Positions 3,244 through 31,735 of a DNA stretch of 64,000 nucleotides are shown here, piece by piece; the first letter of the stretch is position 1; the number at the start of each line of letters is the position of its first letter. Source of the stretch: Nafulsella turpanensis ZLM-10. GTDB taxonomy: Bacteria; Bacteroidota; Bacteroidia; Cytophagales; Cyclobacteriaceae. Location of the stretch: NCBI RefSeq assembly GCF_000346615.1, contig NZ_ANNU01000002.1:62001-126000 (forward strand). The letters run 5' to 3'. The translations under genes and the position numbers were made by a program. Under the pieces are notes generated by a model. That model made no database searches, had not been told where the DNA came from, and saw only the letters and a list, made by a program, of their open reading frames with translations.

Positions 3244-4310
3244 CTAGTCTTCCTTCAGCCTCTCCCTGAGTTTACCCATATCCCCACTCAACTTCCTCTC
3301 CACCACTTTAGCATAAATCTGGGTAGTGCTGATCATGGAATGGCCCAGCATTTTACTTACTGATTCAATGGGCCCGCCATTGGAAAGGGTAACAGTGGTG
3401 GCAAAAGCGTGGCGGGCGAGGTGAAATACCAGGTGCTCCTGAATACTGCAGATATCAGCTATTTCCTTTAAATAACTGTTGAGCTTCTGATTGGAAATAG
3501 GTGGAAAATAGTATCCATTATCAGGGAACGCCTGTAGCCTTTATACTGATCAAGAATATAAGGTGCCTTTGTCAGTAGCGGCACCCGCACCAGGCTTCCT
3601 GCTTTCTGGGTCCAATGCCAGCCACTTCTCTCCGTTCATCCCTGTGACAATATTAGCTTCCGTCAGCTGCATTAAAAATATAGGCGAAACCGGTGTAGCA
3701 GCTAAAAATAAAAAGTCTCTGACCATCTGAATACGTGGAATGATCAGCCTCTTCTCTTCCACCAATGCCAGTTCTTCTTGGTTAAAAACTCCCGTTCCAC
3801 TTTTCAAACTTCTGCTTAAAGTTAGCAAAATGGTTCTTTTCCAGCCATTCCATTTTCATAGCCAGATTCACCACCTTTCGAAACGCTCCAGGTGCTTCAT
3901 CATCCTGCTACTCCAGAGAGGCTTTTGATGATCTTCCTGTTCATAAATTCTGAGAAAATATTAAAATTCACTAACTAAGCCGTAGTTCAGCTCCGTGAGA
4001 GGAACATCCTTTTTCCCGAAGCAGCGTTAAGGAAACGCCGCAGATACTTTTGCGTATTAAAGTAGTCTTTCAGGGGCCCTGGTCAGGCTGCTTTTCATCC
4101 GGGTGTTGTGATACTCGACGATCTCTAACAGAGAAGGCTATTCCTCCATTGAAATACCCAAATAAGCATTTTAAATGCTTCAGCTGTAAAGCTTTCTCGG
4201 GCGGCACGCAGGTCCTGGTAATACAGGAAGACCGCTCCCTCTACCTGTTTAAGATGGGCATTGAAGGTCCCGCCTTCTTCACCTGTAGTTTTCCCAGACA
4301 TTGAACATTA
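3244..4310 (-). pseudogene. Decayed tyrosine recombinase (site-specific integrase)
   Basis: A whole Bacteroidetes-type integrase can be read on the minus strand only by switching frames several times. From the 5' side: a core-binding region around 4060-4260 (HLKQVEGAVFLYYQDL, then LEIVEYHNTR), KDYFNTQKYLRRFLNAASG, LTELNYGLVSEF ending in a stop, FRKVVNLAMKMEWLEKNHF around 3840-3905, FNQEELALVEEKRLIIPR and NIVTGMNGEKW (3550-3828), then after another shift the catalytic C-terminus with HLARHAFATT and LGHSMISTTQIYAKV, ending at TAG 3244-3246. The active-site HxxR, H and Y are still visible, but the R-box region reads PVSPIFLMQ and is eroded. Frameshifts and stops make it non-functional. The family is the same as, but not a copy of, the intact integrase at 4550. 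Confidence 0.85.
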
Positions 4311-4549: not shown

Positions 4550-5776
4550 CTAGGAATTCCACTGCACTGCTTTTAGAGCTTTCTTTACGGCTTCCTTGCG
4601 AACTTTCCCATAGATCTGGGTGGTGCGGATGTTGGTATGGCCGAGAATCTGCTGCACGACTTCGTAGCTGAGTCCCATGTCCAGCAGCAGAGTGGCGCAG
4701 CTGTGGCGGCCCATATGGAAGGTCAGGTTCCGCTTCAGACCGGCCAGAAAGGCAAGCTGCTTCAGACAGCGGTTCACATACTGATTACTGAGGGACCCGA
4801 ATAATTCATATTCCCCTTTCTTCAGATACTTTTTTACAATTTCTTCAGGCTTACGGTTAAAGAGCAGGTAGATGGGAATCAGCACATCTGTTTTGGTTTT
4901 GTGCTGCATGCTGTAATAAAGCGAATAGCCCTCGCCCTTGCTGTACTGCAGGCAGCTTTCATCCAGGCGGACCACATCCGAATAGCGGAGACCGGCATAA
5001 CAGCTCAGCAGGAACATGTCCCGGATCTTTTCCAGGTACGCCAGGTGAGGGGGAATTTCTACCTGCTCCAGCTTTTGTACTTCTTCGGGGGTTAAATACT
5101 TGCGGGCCGTCTGGCTGGCCACCTTGCGGTATTTGGCGGTGCTGAAGCGCAGGAAGGGATCCTGCTGTGGTTCGAGGTAACCTTCCTGAATGGCCCGGCT
5201 GACATAGGCCCTGAGCGTTTTAAAGAGTCCGTGGATGCGGGTATAGGAAAGCGGTCGTTCTTCTCCCGAGTGATGAGGAAAGCGGTATTTCAGCAGAAAG
5301 CTTTCATACGCCCGGAGCAGTTCAGTCGTCAGCTCGAAAAAGTGCACCTCCTGTTTAAATTCCCGGAAGCGGTTCAGGTCGGAACGATGGGCCCGTTTGG
5401 TTTCATACTCCAGCTGGTTATCCGTTTCTACCCAGGTATGCCAGAAGTCCGTAAAGCTGATAGAAGGAGCCCGTACCTGCAGCTGGTCCAGTGAAAGGGC
5501 GGGCAGAATCAGAGGGCGACCTGCTTTGGCCTCATTCCGTTCATGGGTGCGGAGTTGCCCCAGGTATTCCTGCAGTTCCTCATTCAGTTCATCAGCACGA
5601 GGGTGGTGGTAACTGACCTCGCTGCGGCGTTCATCCCACTCTTTTGGTTTAAGGTAAATACCGGTGCTAATCCACTTTCTTTTCTGCTGATAATAAACCT
5701 GAATCTGGACAAGAGCTTCTCCATCTTTATTAAGTTTATTTTTCCGGTTGTAAACGAAGGTGTAGAGGGCTTTCAT
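4550..5776 (-). CDS. Site-specific tyrosine integrase (Bacteroidetes mobile-element type)
   Basis: 408 aa, intact. The N-terminal arm-type DNA-binding domain (about 1-55) has the usual KWISTGIYLKPKEWD motif; a SAM-like core-binding domain spans about 105-210; the catalytic domain spans about 225-400 with Arg264 (GLRYSD), His354-x-x-Arg357 (HMGRH), His380 (LGHTNIRTTQ) and nucleophile Tyr389. It therefore has the full set of catalytic residues for strand exchange. The family drives integration of conjugative transposons, mobilisable elements and genomic islands. It sits next to a decayed relative, three phased direct repeats lie just upstream, and a truncated host-gene remnant lies beyond them. 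No conjugation or cargo genes remain in the window, so this looks like the surviving end of an eroded island. Confidence 0.93.
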   Translation of the reverse strand: MKALYTFVYNRKNKLNKDGEALVQIQVYYQQKRKWISTGIYLKPKEWDERRSEVSYHHPRADELNEELQEYLGQLRTHERNEAKAGRPLILPALSLDQLQVRAPSISFTDFWHTWVETDNQLEYETKRAHRSDLNRFREFKQEVHFFELTTELLRAYESFLLKYRFPHHSGEERPLSYTRIHGLFKTLRAYVSRAIQEGYLEPQQDPFLRFSTAKYRKVASQTARKYLTPEEVQKLEQVEIPPHLAYLEKIRDMFLLSCYAGLRYSDVVRLDESCLQYSKGEGYSLYYSMQHKTKTDVLIPIYLLFNRKPEEIVKKYLKKGEYELFGSLSNQYVNRCLKQLAFLAGLKRNLTFHMGRHSCATLLLDMGLSYEVVQQILGHTNIRTTQIYGKVRKEAVKKALKAVQWNS

Positions 5777-6221: not shown

Positions 6222-7568
6222 TTACTGCACAAGCTCTGCAGGCCAGGTAAAACAAAATCTGGAACCTTCTCCAGGGGCCTTGGCTTCTTCTATCCAAATT
6301 TTACCGCCTTTTTCGGTGATAATTTTTTTGACAATGGCCAGCCCTATTCCTGTACTGTCAGCTTTTTTGGTATTTTCCAGCACTGTAAAAATTTTAAAAA
6401 CCTTTTCTCTCTTTTTTAAAGGAATACCCGGGCCATTATCTTCTACAAAGAAACAAAAATCACCTGTTTCATTTTGTTCATACCCTACTATTATTCTTCC
6501 TTCGACCTTATCATTATATTTAAGGGCATTCGACAAGAGATTACTAAATATCTGGTAAAGGAAAATCTTTTCAGTAAACAAAACAGGGAAGTTCCTTTCA
6601 ATTTCAAGCGTAAAGCCTTCCGGGAGCACAATGTTGTTTTCCATTTCTTTTAACAGCTCCCCCACATCCACAGTGGTTTTTTCAAGTTTCTCATGCCCGG
6701 CCCGGCTATAGGCTAACACGCTCTGAATTAGGTTCTCCATTTTTTGTAGCTGCCCTTTAAAAACCACTACTGTCTTTTCCTGATCTATCTGCCCCATCTC
6801 CATCAGTTTTAAAGTTCCCTTCAGGTTATTTAGCGGGGATTTTAAATCATGAGAAACAATATGAGCAAACTCATCCAGCTCTTCATTCCTTTTCAGGAGA
6901 AGTTCATTCTGCCGGGCATAATCGTCGGAGAGCTGCTTATTTTTATGATAGTTATTTTCGAGCTCTAAATGAAGAACCTGTATCTCCTCAAGTTGCTCCT
7001 GGGCCTGTGTTTTTTTTACCCGTAATTCCTCCAGTGTCTTTAGCAATAAAATATTCTGCCGCTTCAGTTCATCGTACGGAGAAATAGGCGCTAACTGACT
7101 AAAATGCTTTCTCCAGCCAGAAAGAATCATGTGGTTTATTGGCGGGTGCGAGCCTGGCAACCGCCTGCCTATTCTCACACAGGTGCCTTCTTCTTCCGAG
7201 CTGTCCATTTCAAACTTATCGGAAAGTCTTTTGCAGTTTACAAGACCCGTCCTCTGGCCGCCTGTCTGCAATTCCAGTTTTTTTAACAAGGACCCCAGGT
7301 CTTTTATTCCCGGGCCACTATCATGAACAATGGCCTCAATAAAGAAGCTTTGCCCATCTTTAGTGATATAGAACTTAATATCGCCTTTCCCAACATGGAC
7401 TAATGCATTGCGGCTAATTTCAGAAACTGCCGTCGCAAACTTAGTCTGTTCCGTAAAATTAAGACCGGAAATTTCGGCCAGCTGCATTGCCTTTTTATAA
7501 GCAATAACTAAATCAAGTTCCGTATCGAGCGATACTTCAATTATAGGTTTTTGCACCTCTTCCATCAT
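6222..7568 (-). CDS. Hybrid RsbT-like ATPase / histidine kinase
   Basis: 448 aa, cytoplasmic. Residues about 10-135 form an anti-sigma/RsbT-type ATPase domain (AVSEISRNALVHV N-box, DSGPGI, GLVNCKRLSD), about 165-230 a coiled coil, then a HisKA domain with His240 (SHDLKSP) and a C-terminal HATPase domain with N (LLSNALKYND), G1 (EDNGPGIP), F and G2 (STGIGLAIV) boxes. There is no receiver domain and no membrane segment. It is the last gene of the rsb operon and its start overlaps the phosphatase gene by 32 bp, so it is translationally coupled. It probably passes the stressosome state into a phosphorelay (inference); the partner regulator is not encoded nearby. Confidence 0.9.
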   Translation of the reverse strand: MMEEVQKPIIEVSLDTELDLVIAYKKAMQLAEISGLNFTEQTKFATAVSEISRNALVHVGKGDIKFYITKDGQSFFIEAIVHDSGPGIKDLGSLLKKLELQTGGQRTGLVNCKRLSDKFEMDSSEEEGTCVRIGRRLPGSHPPINHMILSGWRKHFSQLAPISPYDELKRQNILLLKTLEELRVKKTQAQEQLEEIQVLHLELENNYHKNKQLSDDYARQNELLLKRNEELDEFAHIVSHDLKSPLNNLKGTLKLMEMGQIDQEKTVVVFKGQLQKMENLIQSVLAYSRAGHEKLEKTTVDVGELLKEMENNIVLPEGFTLEIERNFPVLFTEKIFLYQIFSNLLSNALKYNDKVEGRIIVGYEQNETGDFCFFVEDNGPGIPLKKREKVFKIFTVLENTKKADSTGIGLAIVKKIITEKGGKIWIEEAKAPGEGSRFCFTWPAELVQ

Positions 7569-8998: not shown

Positions 8999-9392
8999 CC
9001 ATCTCAGCCTCCGACTCCGAATCTTCAGTTAAATCATCAGCCAGCTTTTTCTGTAAAAGGGCCATTCCCTTTTCCACATTAAGAGCAGTGTGTACGCCAG
9101 AAAGAGGAAGGCCTAATTCTACCAGGGTAATGGCAACGGCGGGTTGCATACCAACTACGATGGTTTCGGCATCCATTATTCTAGACATGGTGGCAATATT
9201 GCCAATAATACGGCCCATAAAAGAATCTACAATGGACACTGCCGATATATCGATCAGTACTCCTTTCGATCCGTTTTTCTGAACCATAATTATCAGGTCA
9301 TTTTCCAGGTTGAGGGCAAGCCTGTCGTACATATCTACCTGAATGGTTACAAGCAGGAAGGGCCCCATCTTTAATATTGGAATTCTGTCCAT
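8976..9392 (-). CDS. rsbS: RsbS-like STAS stressosome scaffold
   Basis: 138 aa; one STAS domain (about 1-115) followed by an acidic tail rich in Asp and Glu. The phosphorylation motif LIDISAVSIVDSFMGR places the target serine at residue 57, matching the conserved Ser of Bacillus RsbS. RsbS sequesters RsbT in the stressosome until phosphorylated. It lies 17 bp downstream of rsbR and overlaps rsbT. The acidic C-terminal extension is longer than in Bacillus RsbS. Confidence 0.92.
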   Translation of the reverse strand: MDRIPILKMGPFLLVTIQVDMYDRLALNLENDLIIMVQKNGSKGVLIDISAVSIVDSFMGRIIGNIATMSRIMDAETIVVGMQPAVAITLVELGLPLSGVHTALNVEKGMALLQKKLADDLTEDSESEAEMDDNDQSE

Positions 9393-28268: not shown

Positions 28269-28271
28269 ACT

Positions 28272-28355
28272 GAAAATACCAGTAACAAAGGTAACATCGG
28301 AGAACCTAATATTACCCGGTAACACTCTGCGTAATGATAATATAATATGAATACT
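28272..28355. repeat. 9-bp repeat cluster A
   Basis: Units read AGTAACAAA (28281), GGTAACATC (28290), then a degenerate part and GGTAACACT (28318), at roughly 9-bp spacing (one 1-bp slip). Same consensus (RGTAACAYY) as clusters B-H around the ParA/RHH genes. It sits immediately after the kinase stop codon. Confidence 0.75.
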
Positions 28356-28865
28356 GTTCCCTATACGCCGCTCTTTCTATTCCGCTGTTGAAAATAAAAC
28401 AAAAAAGGCGGGGATCTTATCCTCTGTCACACGATCTTACAGGTCCGGTGCAGGAAACAGAGCAGCTAGTGCCTGTTAGCCTGGTTCGATGGTCGTGATG
28501 GATGCGTACTTCCCGAAGGAATGAGCGCCATTCAAGGAGCATAAACCTCTATACCTAAAAGCATTTACACCAATACCCGCCATATGTACTTCTAAACTCT
28601 TCCAGTCCCTTTAAATTGTACATTCGCCTGCTATCCTGTTCAGGTATTTCTTTTCTCTCACAAACTCTCACTGCCTTCTTATCCTTCCTGAGGAGGACGG
28701 AAGAAGATTTCTGTTGTTGCGCTCATCATCATGCCCACAGTTTACTTACTCCCACACCTTTTCTGCGAAGAGGAGCAGGAAGGATATTGGCGGTTATTCT
28801 CACCACTGAGCTGATAAAAGCCAACTCGCTTACTTTTTACTACCTTCCTAAGCTCCTCTTTTCCA

Positions 28866-28930
28866 ATAGTGTTAATTACCTGTAGTAACATTGATAACAC
28901 CATTAATACCAGTAATCATGAGTTACTGTA
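28866..28930. repeat. 9-bp repeat cluster B
   Basis: Strictly 9-bp phased units: AGTAACATT (28884), GATAACACC (28893), ATTAATACC (28902), AGTAATCAT (28911), GAGTTACTG (28920). The first four share the RNTAAYA core. Confidence 0.85.
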
Positions 28931-29124
28931 AGTCCTTTGCTATGCCTGGTCATGTCTTTAAGCAGACAGCCCGGCGACCTCATTTCTCCTTCTGAAACCT
29001 GCACCACCTTCTCCTTTGCCACGGTCCTAATGAGCTACCTCCTGTGGAGAACCATAAAAATGGAGATAAGGTACTATAATCACGGATTTTACCGTCTCCC
29101 ATCCTTTCCGCTTAAAATCAAAAA

Positions 29125-29242
29125 ATGAACATCAATCATATCAGTAACCTTCATAACTTTAGTAACAATAATAACTACCATAATAAAAGTATCATTCTCC
29201 ATATAGAAAAGCACGATAATAGTGATAATATAAAGAATACAC
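29125..29242. repeat. 9-bp repeat cluster C (longest)
   Basis: About thirteen consecutive nonamers in one phase: AGTAACCTT (29143), CATAACTTT, AGTAACAAT (29161), AATAACTAC, CATAATAAA, AGTATCATT, two degenerate units, GATAATAGT (29215), GATAATATA, AAGAATACA. The 9-bp phase holds without slips over about 115 bp. Confidence 0.85.
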
Positions 29243-29383
29243 CACCTGCTGCCCCTGAAAAGAAAAATGCCCTTAATCCACTCTTGCAAAAAAGAATTAA
29301 AACTCCACTTCTACTCCAATGCTTCTTTCCCGGAGGTTGTACATTTCGGGCTTTAGGTTGCCTTAATGAAACCATTACTGCGC

Positions 29384-29430
29384 CAAAAAATGTTTAATAC
29401 CGGTAACATTAGTAACAGGGTGACATCTCT
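29384..29430. repeat. 9-bp repeat cluster D
   Basis: TTTAATACC (29393), GGTAACATT (29402), AGTAACAGG (29411), GTGACATCT (29420); same phase and consensus as the other clusters. Confidence 0.8.
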
Positions 29431-29572
29431 TTCAGGTGAATGAAGAGCCTCATTAACATAATTTTGGTCGCTTGATATACAAACCATTAAGTGTAGCGTA
29501 TTGGACAAATCTCCGGTAAAAGAAACATGCTCCTCACCACCATTTTGAAAGAAAGAATAAAAGTTTGAAAAG

Positions 29573-29636
29573 GAAGCTACCAGTAATCTCATTAGCATCC
29601 GTAACATTCAGAACACCGGGTTACTGAGCGTGTTAT
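29573..29636. repeat. 9-bp repeat cluster E
   Basis: AGTAATCTC (29582), ATTAGCATC (29591), CGTAACATT (29600), CAGAACACC (29609), GGGTTACTG (29618), AGCGTGTTA (29627). Confidence 0.8.
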
Positions 29637-30026
29637 AGTGGCAGAGCAGCCTTTTATACTAAAAATGATGAATATAGAATGCAGAAAAGTAAACTCAGCT
29701 GATCCCGCTTTTAATAAAAGGGTTTAAAGAAAGTAAGTCATCCTAATTTAAACTGAACCCGGAATCAGGAGTGTGAAAAAGCCAGGCTGTTTCTGATGAA
29801 TCAACATTCCGTGTCCTGCTGACGTTAGCGGAGGCCGTGCGGGAAGCCTCTTTCCACCTAACATAATCTTTTTAAACTTCAGGTATTTGAAGGATTTCTC
29901 CTGCCGTCGAAATGACAAAATTAGAGTTAAAGGTATTTATCAGACACAGCTTAGAAAATGTCCTCCTTTAACGTGAGGTATGGAATGAAAACACCATTAA
30001 GCAACTTCTAAAACAGCTTAAACAGA

Positions 30027-30136
30027 CTCGTCATCCTGCATGGGTGGCCCCAGGGCTGCAGGGATCTCAGCCTGTTTAGTATAATCCATGCTCAGGATTC
30101 CGGATTTCCCTTGCTCTTCGTCCGGAATGACGGTAG
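30027..30136. repeat. Interspersed repeat fragment (GTCATCCTG type)
   Basis: Begins CGTCATCCTGCATGGGTGG, contains CAGGGATCTCAGCC and ends CGTCCGGAATGACGG, so the two ends are partly complementary (CGTCATCC / GGAATGACG). Similar ends occur at 45383, 62399 and 62680. This looks like a dispersed, REP-like non-coding repeat. Confidence 0.5.
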
Positions 30137-30340
30137 GTGACAGACCTTAGAAGAACCTACCATTCCCGGGTTCACGTTTATTAAAGCGATTTCTGCACTG
30201 CCCGGAATCTTTAAATATTTCACCCCTTAAAAAGCCAACAGCCTTTACAGGAAGAACCGGTTTTGTTTACTGAAATAAAAAAAAGGAAGGGAAACAGCAT
30301 TTTTACTGAAAGGGAAAATGCCTGGTGGAGAGAATATGAT

Positions 30341-30421
30341 TAGTTGAAAAAGTTACCTGGTAACACTGGTAATAAAAATAACCCGGCAAACACCTTGTTC
30401 ACCGGGTTAATATTGTTGCTG
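30341..30421. repeat. 9-bp repeat cluster F
   Basis: AAGTTACCT (30350), GGTAACACT (30359), GGTAATAAA (30368), AATAACCCG (30377), GCAAACACC (30386), TTGTTCACC (30395), GGGTTAATA (30404). It ends directly at the stop codon of the small RHH-like gene. Confidence 0.85.
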
Positions 30422-30422
30422 A

Positions 30423-30797
30423 TTAACCTGCTCTTCCTCTACGGATGCGCTGGGCTCTTTCCTGCTCCCTTTCCTTTAACTTATCCGGCCTGGGCTTTAT
30501 CTCCCCGGCCGATTCAAACAACATATCCAGCGCTTCGTGCATGGCATCCTTCTGGGTATAATAAGAGTCTTCCGTAACCCGAATCATGTGCACATAATCT
30601 TTCAGTTTCTCCAGGTAGTCTTCCCGAATCACGAAGGTTTGCCGCAGGTCTTTCGGCACTTCTTCCTCCTGCTTCACCACCTGGGGCGGCTGGGCATCCT
30701 TTTCAGAAGGTGGGGTCGAAACCAGACTTTTGATCCCCCTCTTCTCATTTAAATTGGTTTTATCTATTGCTGATTTAAAGCTTTTCCTCTGGGCCAT
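30423..30797 (-). CDS. Small ribbon-helix-helix-like protein, candidate ParA partner
   Basis: 124 aa. A basic, probably disordered N-terminus (about 1-45) is followed by RQTFVIREDYLEKLKDYVHM and a second helix ending HEALDMLFES. This is the beta-strand/helix/helix order of ribbon-helix-helix DNA-binding proteins such as ParG or the omega regulator, which act as centromere-binding partners of small ParA ATPases. The C-terminus is Arg-rich (RAQRIRRGRAG). It starts 71 bp after the parA stop, and repeat clusters lie on both sides of it (F after its stop, G before its start), so it is the obvious candidate to bind them. The assignment rests on pattern and context, not a database match. Confidence 0.75.
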   Translation of the reverse strand: MAQRKSFKSAIDKTNLNEKRGIKSLVSTPPSEKDAQPPQVVKQEEEVPKDLRQTFVIREDYLEKLKDYVHMIRVTEDSYYTQKDAMHEALDMLFESAGEIKPRPDKLKEREQERAQRIRRGRAG

Positions 30798-30804
30798 TCT
30801 TCAC

Positions 30805-30849
30805 CATGTTTATCGTGTTACTCATATTAATCATAACACCTGTATTATC
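30805..30849. repeat. 9-bp repeat cluster G (between parA and the RHH gene)
   Basis: Reads on the minus strand as GATAATACA, GGTGTTATG, ATTAATATG, AGTAACACG, ATAAACATG, in strict 9-bp phase (30805-30849). It fills most of the 71-bp gap upstream of the RHH-like gene, the position of an operator. Confidence 0.85.
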
Positions 30850-30868
30850 AAAAAATTATCTCTCTTTC

Positions 30869-31615
30869 TTACGGGCGGACTAAAATTTCATCTACCAGCG
30901 AGGCATAATCTACCGCCCCGTAGCTTTTTGGATTATAGGAAAAAATATCCTGCCAGTGGCTGGGCGCCTCGGCCAGGGTAACATTATCCCGAATCACCGT
31001 CCGGAACACCTTATCCTTAAAGTGCTCCTGTACCAGCTCGGCAATGTCACGATTCAGCACCTTACGGCCATCAAACTGGGTGGTAAACACCCCGCTGATG
31101 TGCAGATTCGGGTTGATATTTTCCTTTACCAGGTCCACTATCTCGAATAATTTATCCAGACCGTGCAGAGCCAGGAACTGTGCCTGCAGGGGAATATATA
31201 TTTCATCGGCAGCGGCAAAAGCGTTTATGGTAATCAGTCCCAGCGAAGGCGCACAGTCCAGCAGGATATAATCATACTGATCGCGCACCTTTTCCACCAG
31301 CTTTTTCAGAATTGTTTCGCGGGCTATTTTAGAGGCCAGCTCCACTTCTGCCCCGGCCAGGTCAAGAGTAGAGGCTACCACATGCAGGGTGTCACGCAGC
31401 TCATAAGGGCGCAGTTCATACTCTCCAATCAGGGAACCATACACAGTATACTCCGGGTCCTGTATTCCGAAGCACTGGGTAAGGTTCGCCTGCGGATCCA
31501 TGTCGATCAGCAATACTCGTTTGCCCTTATTCGCCAGGCCTGCACCAATGTTTACGGTAGAAGTGGTTTTACCTACGCCCCCTTTGTGGTTGCTTAATGC
31601 AATGACTTTAGTCAT
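30869..31615 (-). CDS. parA: ParA family partition ATPase
   Basis: 248 aa. Deviant Walker A KGGVGKTT at residues 11-18, A' motif LLIDMDPQANLT, Walker B-like ILLDCAPSLGL, and the usual EIYIPLQAQFLALHGLDKL segment. There is no N-terminal helix-turn-helix, so it is a short, type Ib/Soj-sized ParA (ParF-like). Such ATPases move DNA or cargo with a small DNA-binding partner; no ParB homologue is adjacent, but an RHH-like protein follows directly. Repeat clusters upstream of the start (H) and downstream (G) suggest autoregulation and centromere binding. It has no chromosomal gid/parB neighbours, so it is not the standard chromosomal Soj locus. Confidence 0.93.
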   Translation of the reverse strand: MTKVIALSNHKGGVGKTTSTVNIGAGLANKGKRVLLIDMDPQANLTQCFGIQDPEYTVYGSLIGEYELRPYELRDTLHVVASTLDLAGAEVELASKIARETILKKLVEKVRDQYDYILLDCAPSLGLITINAFAAADEIYIPLQAQFLALHGLDKLFEIVDLVKENINPNLHISGVFTTQFDGRKVLNRDIAELVQEHFKDKVFRTVIRDNVTLAEAPSHWQDIFSYNPKSYGAVDYASLVDEILVRP

Positions 31616-31617
31616 GT

Positions 31618-31735
31618 CCTTATTATAATTAGTATTGAAATTAAGATGAACCCAAAGAATACAGTAGACACTGTATTACTGATGTTACTCGTATTACTAC
31701 TATTCTTTGTATTGCTAATATTGTAATTATTCTTC
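31618..31735. repeat. 9-bp repeat cluster H (upstream of parA)
   Basis: In minus-strand sense: AGTAATACA, AGTAACATC, AGTAATACG, then more degenerate AT-rich units to 31735, at strict 9-bp spacing (plus-strand units start at 31673, 31682, 31691, 31700, 31709). It covers the parA promoter region. Confidence 0.85.

Follow-up and report, generated by a model that had tools for sequence, protein, structure and literature searches.

Partition systems of type Ib are built around a small ParA ATPase that has a deviant Walker A motif and no N-terminal helix-turn-helix (HTH) domain, and the ribbon-helix-helix (RHH) fold is also that of MatP, a protein tied to the terminus region that is not known to have a ParA partner. 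In the type Ib partner protein, the ATPase is activated by an N-terminal tail that is unstructured, while the C-terminal part is an RHH domain; the protein attaches to repeats that precede its operon, which it represses (PMC5016525); the split into types Ia and Ib is described as having many exceptions (PMC13245405). Here we analysed a stretch of 64,000 nucleotides, called the window, from the draft genome of the soil bacterium Nafulsella turpanensis ZLM-10 (G000, 4.80 Mb in 109 contigs; positions 62001-126000 of the 206-kb contig C2), in which a parA gene and the gene of an RHH-like protein of 124 amino acids (aa) lie among phased arrays of a 9-bp unit. Judged from its sequence, this locus is likely to be a partition module of the type-I RHH-ParB kind that has been fixed on the chromosome and has a 9-bp centromere unit of its own.

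Several described systems resemble this locus in part. The delta-omega-parS system of plasmid pSM19035 likewise combines ParA with a small RHH protein, omega, and has arrays of a short unit at several places per replicon, overlapping promoters; one omega dimer covers each 7-bp unit, and ParA is fully stimulated only when four or more units are contiguous (PMC9499535). The original prediction had set the repeats of the window apart from those of omega, and rightly so, since the omega unit is the non-palindromic heptad WATCACW (PMC9499535) on a plasmid, whereas the unit found here is a 9-bp pseudo-palindrome, RRTRWYAYY, on an apparent chromosome, most units lying in gene-free DNA and, in plasmid cousins, also inside the RHH gene. 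ParF-ParG-parH of TP228 shares an RHH protein with a flexible N-terminal tail and a centromere upstream of the operon but has direct and inverted repeats split by AT-rich regions, and the account of it in the relevant passages of PMC5016525 describes no array inside a gene. The archaeal SegA-SegB system of Sulfolobales also pairs a chromosomal ParA with an RHH protein, and imperfect palindromes precede its operon (PMC12284271); by that description it is set apart by a 13-bp motif and by 39 chromatin immunoprecipitation peaks across the S. solfataricus chromosome, as compared with phased 9-bp arrays within a 3.5-kb locus of a bacterium that also has canonical ParAB. MatP-matS of the E. coli terminus differs in its 13-bp target, present in 23 copies over 800 kb (PMC3330122). 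Canonical chromosomal ParAB-parS shares a chromosomal ATPase of the ParA family but has an HTH-type CTPase ParB with its own parS as partner. The RHH-like partner gave no ParB domain by Pfam or NCBIfam, and canonical ParB is a separate gene of the same genome, located beside a second ParA on contig G000:C37, with three parS-like sites on G000:C15 and no match for the reversed control.

The small ParA has the type Ib layout (Table 1), its match to Pfam AAA_31 (3.2e-58) spanning residues 2-173, and its best solved-structure match is 8ray, 'ParA family protein' (9e-59), followed by 1wcv, 'segregation protein'. Between the window gene and its counterparts in three close relatives, nonsynonymous divergence (dN) was 0.065-0.098 and synonymous divergence (dS) 1.2, 3.3 and undefined; parA is under purifying selection. 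Repeats, the predicted centromere, are present upstream of the operon in the window, in all three close relatives and in all five Hymenobacter plasmids described below, but in two of six remote homologues and in none of five other plasmid loci. The 124-aa partner fits by position, tail and alignment, the last showing a variable N-terminal tail with a conserved MA..KSF, then an RQTF segment and a conserved domain, RQTFVIREDYLEKLKDYVHMIRVTEDSYYTQKDAMHEALDMLFE, and a basic C-terminus; we take RQTF to be the strand and the remainder the two helices, by analogy with known RHH proteins. Among 20 aligned family members at E<=1, four matched Antitox_RHH, two ParG (best E=0.0012) and one 56B_RHH. The RHH fold is a tentative assignment drawn from sub-threshold Pfam matches and the alignment, and the module, in which two type Ib features are present, is filed under type-I RHH-ParB provisionally.

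We defined the unit with a matrix that was built iteratively on the window only, both strands pooled, and then chained phased units, three units at spacing 9 being termed a triplet. Because of this training, the enrichment figures for the window itself are partly circular, and the fair controls are held-out relatives, the single-contig relative G030 (6,665,617 bases) and canonical ParB loci. The resulting consensus was RRTRWYAYY. On one strand, 53 plasmid units picked with the same window-trained matrix that defines this consensus had A or G at position 2 in 49 cases, T at position 3 in 45, A at position 4 in 46, C or T at position 6 in 49, A at position 7 in 45 and C or T at position 8 in 43, the outer arms being palindromic and the core leaning to AAC. 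Chaining gave 44 units in nine phased clusters between 28272 and 31734, around the parA-RHH pair; 32 of them lie within the 2.1 kb of gene-free DNA 3' of the RHH gene, and seven of the nine clusters hold four to eight in-phase units, some of them degenerate.

The coordinates of the gene pair, the 71-bp gap and the gene-free DNA reaching to the kinase stop codon all agree with the original prediction. The phased, degenerate 9-bp repeats that it reported are real, but the unit is a pseudo-palindrome; in this register, cluster H has unit starts at 31672, 31681 and 31690, each preceding the predicted one by a single base. Its eight clusters are obtained from our nine by joining the third and fourth (letters A-E were assigned in the present analysis). 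The tandem-repeat scan that it proposed as a check recovered the array in small part: Tandem Repeats Finder reported just two short stretches of it, 28895-28916 and 31673-31698, compared with the 44 units from the matrix and chaining.

Table 1. Features of the par locus in the window, and of its counterparts in the Hymenobacter plasmid loci L058-L062
Feature	Position	Strand	Description	Chain score
parA	30869..31615	-	248 aa; deviant Walker A KGGVGKTT near N-terminus; no N-terminal HTH extension	
RHH-like gene	30423..30797	-	124 aa; candidate centromere-binding protein	
Gene-free DNA with clusters A-F	28269..30422		2154 bp without plausible gene; ends at kinase stop codon	
Cluster A	28272..28316		5 units, the first 4 bp past the kinase stop codon	21.8
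Cluster B	28884..28919		4 units	27.7
Cluster C	29125..29241		8 units (29125-29196) and 3 units (29215-29241)	34.5 and 16.5
Cluster D	29393..29419		3 units	17.5
Cluster E	29573..29617		5 units	20.1
Cluster F	30359..30394		4 units directly after the RHH stop codon	19.3
Cluster G	30805..30849		5 units between parA and the RHH gene (71-bp gap), 8-52 bp before the RHH start	28.0
Cluster H	31672..31734		7 phased units, 57-119 bp upstream of the parA start	34.7
Hymenobacter ParA-RHH plasmids			NZ_CP115397, NZ_CP141190, NZ_CP095064, NZ_CP094672, NZ_CP007143	
Intragenic arrays	L058:3923-3949; L059:2692-2727; L060:3872-3979; L061:3743-3805 and 3932-3985; L062:3866-3991		Within the RHH gene of the plasmids	

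Pairs of TAAC 9 bp apart on the plus strand numbered six in the 64 kb, all inside the region, where no other TAAC spacing below 18 occurred. Self-match at lag 9 reached 0.30 in the gene-free DNA (other lags from 5 to 21, 0.245-0.289), 0.47 in the gap holding cluster G (lag 18, 0.49; remaining lags, 0.19-0.36) and 0.40 upstream of parA (lag 12, 0.39; lag 18, 0.36). Across 204 kb of the contig, the locus accounted for nine of the 11 chains scoring >16 and nine of the 13 scoring >14, its share falling to nine of 25 at >12 and nine of 46 at >10, and 14 of the 16 triplets >14 on the contig were at the locus, with one about 4 kb off and one elsewhere. A plain genome scan for TAAC-N5-TAAC was tried as an array detector and discarded as unspecific (131 matches versus 325 for the reversed control).

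The orientation of the core is polar relative to parA. Among units with an AAC or a GTT core, the AAC:GTT ratio upstream of parA was 28:1 on the plasmids and 10:3 in six other loci, while downstream it was 13:35 in those six and 0:15 in the window alone; these counts leave out symmetric and other cores, and symmetric cores were equally or more frequent in the six loci.

The arrays recur with the gene pair in three close relatives (loci L047, L048 and L049), all held out from matrix training, in which ParA is 85-90% and the RHH protein 66-81% identical (tblastn). We compared triplets >10 with dinucleotide-preserving shuffles in the segments upstream of, between and downstream of the two genes; the L048 gap segment took in 19 bases of the parA end, and that of L049 ran two bases into the RHH gene. 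Observed and expected numbers at spacing 9 were 3 and 0.1 upstream, 5 and 0.0 in the gap and 12 and 0.3 downstream for L047; 3 and 0.1, 2 and 0.1, and 8 and 0.5 for L048; and 2 and 0.0, 1 and 0.1, and 9 and 0.6 for L049. The best triplet exceeded the best of 100 shuffles in seven of the nine segments, the exceptions being the L048 gap and the L048 downstream segment. Spacings 7, 10 and 13 gave 0-2 triplets in the held-out segments, and spacing 7 of the RRTRWYAYY unit gave none in 11 of 12 segments scored and one in the other. At the stricter threshold of >14, there were 14 triplets in the window and 9, 5 and 7 at the held-out loci, as against a background of 11 per 400 kb of G030 (20 evenly spaced chunks), or 0.1 per 3.5 kb. 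No triplet >14 was found in 11 canonical ParB loci from 10 genomes (two of them, L002 and L068, overlapping), two of which had one triplet >10. The 10-kb bin of the locus held nine of nine triplets >14 on a 142-kb contig of G027, a relative of the same genus, and seven of 12 on 320 kb of G030. Two of the three outcomes that the original prediction had named as able to refute it, no enrichment over shuffled sequence and no conservation around parA homologues, thus failed to appear, the latter in the three relatives and in the Hymenobacter plasmids.

Compared by blastn with the relatives, the gene-free DNA gave only pieces of up to 51 columns (best, 38 to 44 columns), yet the arrays are kept there, and their persistence in barely alignable DNA is what one would expect if binding sites were lost and regained within the same stretch. 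The next gene beyond differs as well, being an undecaprenyl-diphosphatase-like open reading frame (ORF), recognised by eye, in L047. Four genomes from two genera retain both the genes and the arrays, and dS was >1.2 or undefined in all 12 gene pairs compared. As a separate observation, window positions 29809-29937 share short similarity (best 38 columns, E 7e-5) with L047 at about 7390-7530 and 9040-9290; these pieces are GC-rich and look like scattered extragenic repeats, one L047 stretch occurring twice, beside an N.

In a family draw of 196 genomes, the RHH protein query matched 10, its own genome included, and ParA adjoined the RHH gene in all nine others. Of six remote family homologues (L050-L055), L051 and L054 had 9-bp arrays upstream of parA (five matches each, maxima 22.2 and 17.2), while L052, L053 and L055 gave no array match. 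Within 350 bp upstream of parA on the minus strand of L050, we observed periodicity at lags 10 and 20 (z 5.1 and 4.2) and, by eye, TAGCTA-like motifs; this locus is perhaps a related system with a 10-bp unit.

Outside chromosomes, a tblastn search of 72,556 plasmid records with the RHH protein gave five matches, all in Hymenobacter, and a Hymenobacter query returned the same five. The two genes carry no annotation there beyond 'ParA family protein' and 'hypothetical protein', three of the five fetched stretches include an annotated replication initiation gene, and the RHH proteins are 37-44% identical. The plasmids share with the window the gene order and the 9-bp unit upstream of parA, which the window-trained matrix found in all five (maximum triplet 14.4 to 23.9), with 11 units in a row at 2828-2926 in L060. 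They differ in that this array is compact and that a second one lies inside the RHH gene; the same matrix found no array in the DNA 3' of that gene. Since the unit recurs at plasmid parA-RHH loci, the operator plus centromere of an RHH partition system is the best reading of it. The original prediction of a distinct partition architecture is supported in that scatter over >3 kb sets the chromosomal copies apart from the plasmid ones, but the 9-bp unit is common to a family and not specific to this locus. Outside the par stretches of the plasmid loci, triplets >14 numbered two in L059 and one in L062. The gene-free stretch of the window showed no DNA similarity in plasmids, and no relatives of the RHH protein were found in phages or in viral contigs.

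The second array lies in the variable linker of the RHH gene in all five plasmids. Since 9 bp equal three codons, it stands in codon register: 23 of 23 unit pairs among those listed begin at a codon start, and the encoded peptides are tripeptide repeats of the SNT and VT types, such as SNTSNT and DVTDVTSVT. We ran 500 within-gene shuffles of synonymous codons on the RHH genes of the window, L047, L064 and the five plasmids and on three parA genes as controls. For L058 to L062, respectively, the in-phase pair count was reached in 19, 20, 2, 0 and 0 shuffles, the triplet count in 1, 40, 9, 3 and 27, and the score of the best triplet in 2, 17, 70, 30 and 3. The intragenic array thus exceeds synonymous shuffles strongly in some plasmids, being weakest in L059 on counts and in L060 on the best triplet, and in-phase pairs were absent from the three parA genes and from the RHH genes of L047, L064 and the window. 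Centromeres within genes are not new in themselves, since parS sites inside ORFs are known from repABC replicons (PMC9040568); the parts consulted of the literature on partition systems did not describe a codon-registered array within the gene of the partner itself.

Among 916 plasmid records with a ParA match, we compared five further loci (among them L063, L064 and L066; two from Flavobacterium, one from Adhaeribacter and two from Bacteroides), to which we return below. By eye, CTACAAAAAAGACGTT-like and AACAGATTTCATAAG-like repeats were seen just before annotated replication initiation genes at L061:5340-5640 and L064:5990-6090; these are candidate replication iterons, distinct from the 9-bp units.

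The par locus of G030 is chromosomal, since it shares a single 6.67-Mb contig with dnaA (4.62 Mb) and ParB (6.15 Mb), and canonical ParB was found in 10 of 10 genomes searched. The locus of the window is apparently chromosomal, by synteny only. Colinearity is dense on one side, C2 92-204 kb matching about 377-490 kb of G030 and C2 92-175 kb matching about 3-87 kb of contig C9 of G027, and sparse past the par locus, where some order is kept in G027 (C2 76.7-83.6 kb). On that sparse side, about 23 kb from the locus, the window encodes a tyrosine integrase (4550-5776, minus strand; Phage_integrase, Arm-DNA-bind_5). At 42097-63955 there is a long run of mostly minus-strand genes with matches to asparagine-synthase-like proteins and GDP-mannose dehydratase and a GC content of 0.34-0.39 at 46-60 kb, probably a polysaccharide cluster.

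We also located the locus relative to the replication origin and terminus. GC skew in G030, read from 20 chunks of 20 kb, was negative between 0.67 and 3.66 Mb, and outside this interval all chunks were positive except one at -0.002; by the usual convention, these switches mark an origin at about 3.7-4.0 Mb and a terminus at about 0.65 Mb. The putative origin agrees with a parS-like site at 3.758 Mb, although the reversed-pattern control also gave one match in G030. Third-position skew in 10-kb bins was positive in 28 of 32 bins from 0.333 to 0.653 Mb and negative in all six sampled from 0.666 to 1.02 Mb, single bins elsewhere disagreeing. The G030 par locus, at 0.490 Mb, thus lies about 0.17 Mb, or 2.5% of the chromosome, from the putative terminus. 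On the window contig, third-position skew was near zero over 0-40 kb and negative from 40 kb on, which is compatible with a terminus at least 50 kb from the locus. The link to the terminus, drawn from one genome, is suggestive. A dif candidate near the skew switch (L128:175-198, about 686,175 in G030) has one mismatch in 18 fixed positions of the dif consensus and was the sole match within three mismatches in 800 kb of G030 stretches; because it lies inside the start of a 320-codon ORF and has no counterpart within two mismatches in the other loci compared, C2 or C9, we do not claim it.

The unit was also sought elsewhere in the genomes. Nine other regions of the Nafulsella genome, picked from scan lists, contained eight triplets >14 in seven regions; seven of these triplets (six regions) lie inside stop-to-stop ORFs of at least 100 codons, the other being a strong 9-bp triplet at G000:C25:36570 with no such enclosing ORF. 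Six pattern places were inspected among the G030 matches listed, and four had hits inside ORFs. Two phased 9-bp triplets in G030 were wholly or almost wholly between ORFs, at L099:2565-2600 (about 3.7756 Mb; best 19.3) and L102:1933-1986 (about 3.7890 Mb; best 15.8), not far from the putative origin or from the parS-like site found at 3.758 Mb; given the background of triplets >14 in this genome, two such intergenic places may be due to chance.

As to how the module might work, we infer the following sequence of steps. Dimers of the 124-aa protein would bind one to each pseudo-palindromic RRTRWYAYY unit and align cooperatively along the phased clusters; the nine-base instead of seven-base step would imply a packing of dimers different from that of omega. 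By analogy with omega, the number of in-phase units in most clusters suggests that these could work as centromeres. The clusters upstream of parA and the RHH gene would double as repressor sites for both genes, and the cluster field in the gene-free DNA would be the main centromere. The N-terminal tail of the DNA-bound protein would then stimulate the ATPase of nucleoid-bound ParA, and the ParA gradient would move or position this chromosomal region, which in G030 is near the putative terminus, separately from the canonical ParAB of the same genome. A possible but doubtful extension is that such genomes run a pair of segregation machines, in which canonical ParABS would serve the origin side and a domesticated plasmid ParA system of the RHH type would actively position the terminus side through a multi-kilobase 9-bp centromere, part of which the plasmid cousins would hide in the RHH coding frame.

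Several results weigh against a partition module. The 124-aa protein matches Antitox_RHH at E=0.0055, below the Pfam cut-off, its AF2 model is poor (pLDDT 57.9, from a two-sequence alignment) and shows one long helix, and the best solved-structure profile match of the family is the carboxysome-positioning protein McsB (E=0.016; best single stretch, i-Evalue 0.33). Homologues of the RHH gene are sparse across the draws: besides the family figure, the phylum draw gave two of 395 genomes and a profile search of the class draw one of 395, and each of these totals includes the own genome. Four of the six remote homologues have no clear array upstream of parA, nor do any of the five further plasmid loci, of which L063, L064 and L066 show two weak downstream matches each (best 16.1). 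Other spacings are not always empty: spacing 12 gave eight triplets versus 0.3 expected and spacing 8 gave four in the L047 downstream segment, and spacing 11 gave four to five in L048 and L049. A 27-base degenerate three-unit pattern with up to three mismatches matched 45 places in the own genome (each read on both strands), six at the locus and 39 outside, versus 13 for the reversed control. Finally, the Bacteroidota-type promoter motif was found upstream of neither parA nor the RHH gene in the window.

In an alternative reading, the 124-aa protein would be an autorepressor only, its arrays controlling parA, the RHH gene and perhaps a flanking gene while no DNA is segregated. Clusters H and G are located directly upstream of parA and the RHH gene, repression is a usual second role of RHH partition proteins (PMC5016525) and a ParA-RHH pair does not require a DNA cargo; nevertheless, we judge this unlikely, since 32 of the 44 units are found beyond the RHH gene, in gene-free DNA, relatives keep arrays there despite barely alignable DNA and a different next gene, and the unit also marks plasmid parA-RHH pairs, three of five with an annotated rep gene nearby. 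Those same plasmids, which occur in the same order, Cytophagales, could make the chromosomal arrays an incompatibility decoy that titrates or mis-partitions incoming plasmids with the same centromere and so protects the host, much as parS mimics of SGI1 bind a plasmid ParB and destabilise the helper plasmid (PMC10954446). For such a role the sites would suffice, whereas the chromosomal copy retains the RHH gene and a parA under purifying selection, and the plasmid RHH proteins are just 37-44% identical, so that we give the decoy little credence. It is improbable, too, that the locus is what remains, in decay, of a plasmid that integrated or of a secondary replicon that fused with the chromosome, as its plasmid-type module and the one-sided colinearity might suggest: five plasmid Rep queries (one with a partial match) and two relaxases found nothing further in C2, C9 and 320 kb of G030, where the positive control worked, some gene order is kept past the locus in G027, and genes and arrays persist in four genomes of two genera at the dS given above. 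The McsB match could point to ParA-type positioning of a non-DNA cargo, as by McdA/McdB for carboxysomes, with arrays serving as regulator sites only; we hold this to be very improbable, because the match is weak, no such cargo gene was seen among the 14 window proteins scanned with Pfam, and the pair also occurs on plasmids. Chance or low-complexity AT-rich DNA, to which the degenerate units and the AT-richer 28-30 kb bin (GC content 0.416, neighbours 0.463 and 0.449) might be ascribed, is hardly credible in the face of the dinucleotide-preserving shuffles, most other spacings, the 400 kb of G030 and the held-out loci.

A partition module of the RHH type on a chromosome would conflict with a 2026 paper, according to which bacterial chromosomes have no partition type other than HTH-ParB (PMC13245405). 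Chromosome-encoded ParMs were reported in 2025 (PMC12270681), so that exceptions to this rule exist. A literature search over titles and the starts of abstracts returned, among the matches listed, no description of a 9-bp ParA-RHH centromere or of an RHH-ParB system on a bacterial chromosome; new here are the plasmid family sharing the unit and the module on a 6.67-Mb single-contig chromosome beside canonical ParB. If our reading is true, the chromosomal RHH-type module would be another exception, and active handling of the terminus side by a ParA would be directly testable. The 9-bp unit also provides a predicted centromere for a Hymenobacter plasmid family that is unannotated, which would help in building stable vectors and in anticipating incompatibility, and in the in-frame array one stretch of DNA would be both coding sequence and predicted protein-binding array, for the simple reason that its period is three codons.

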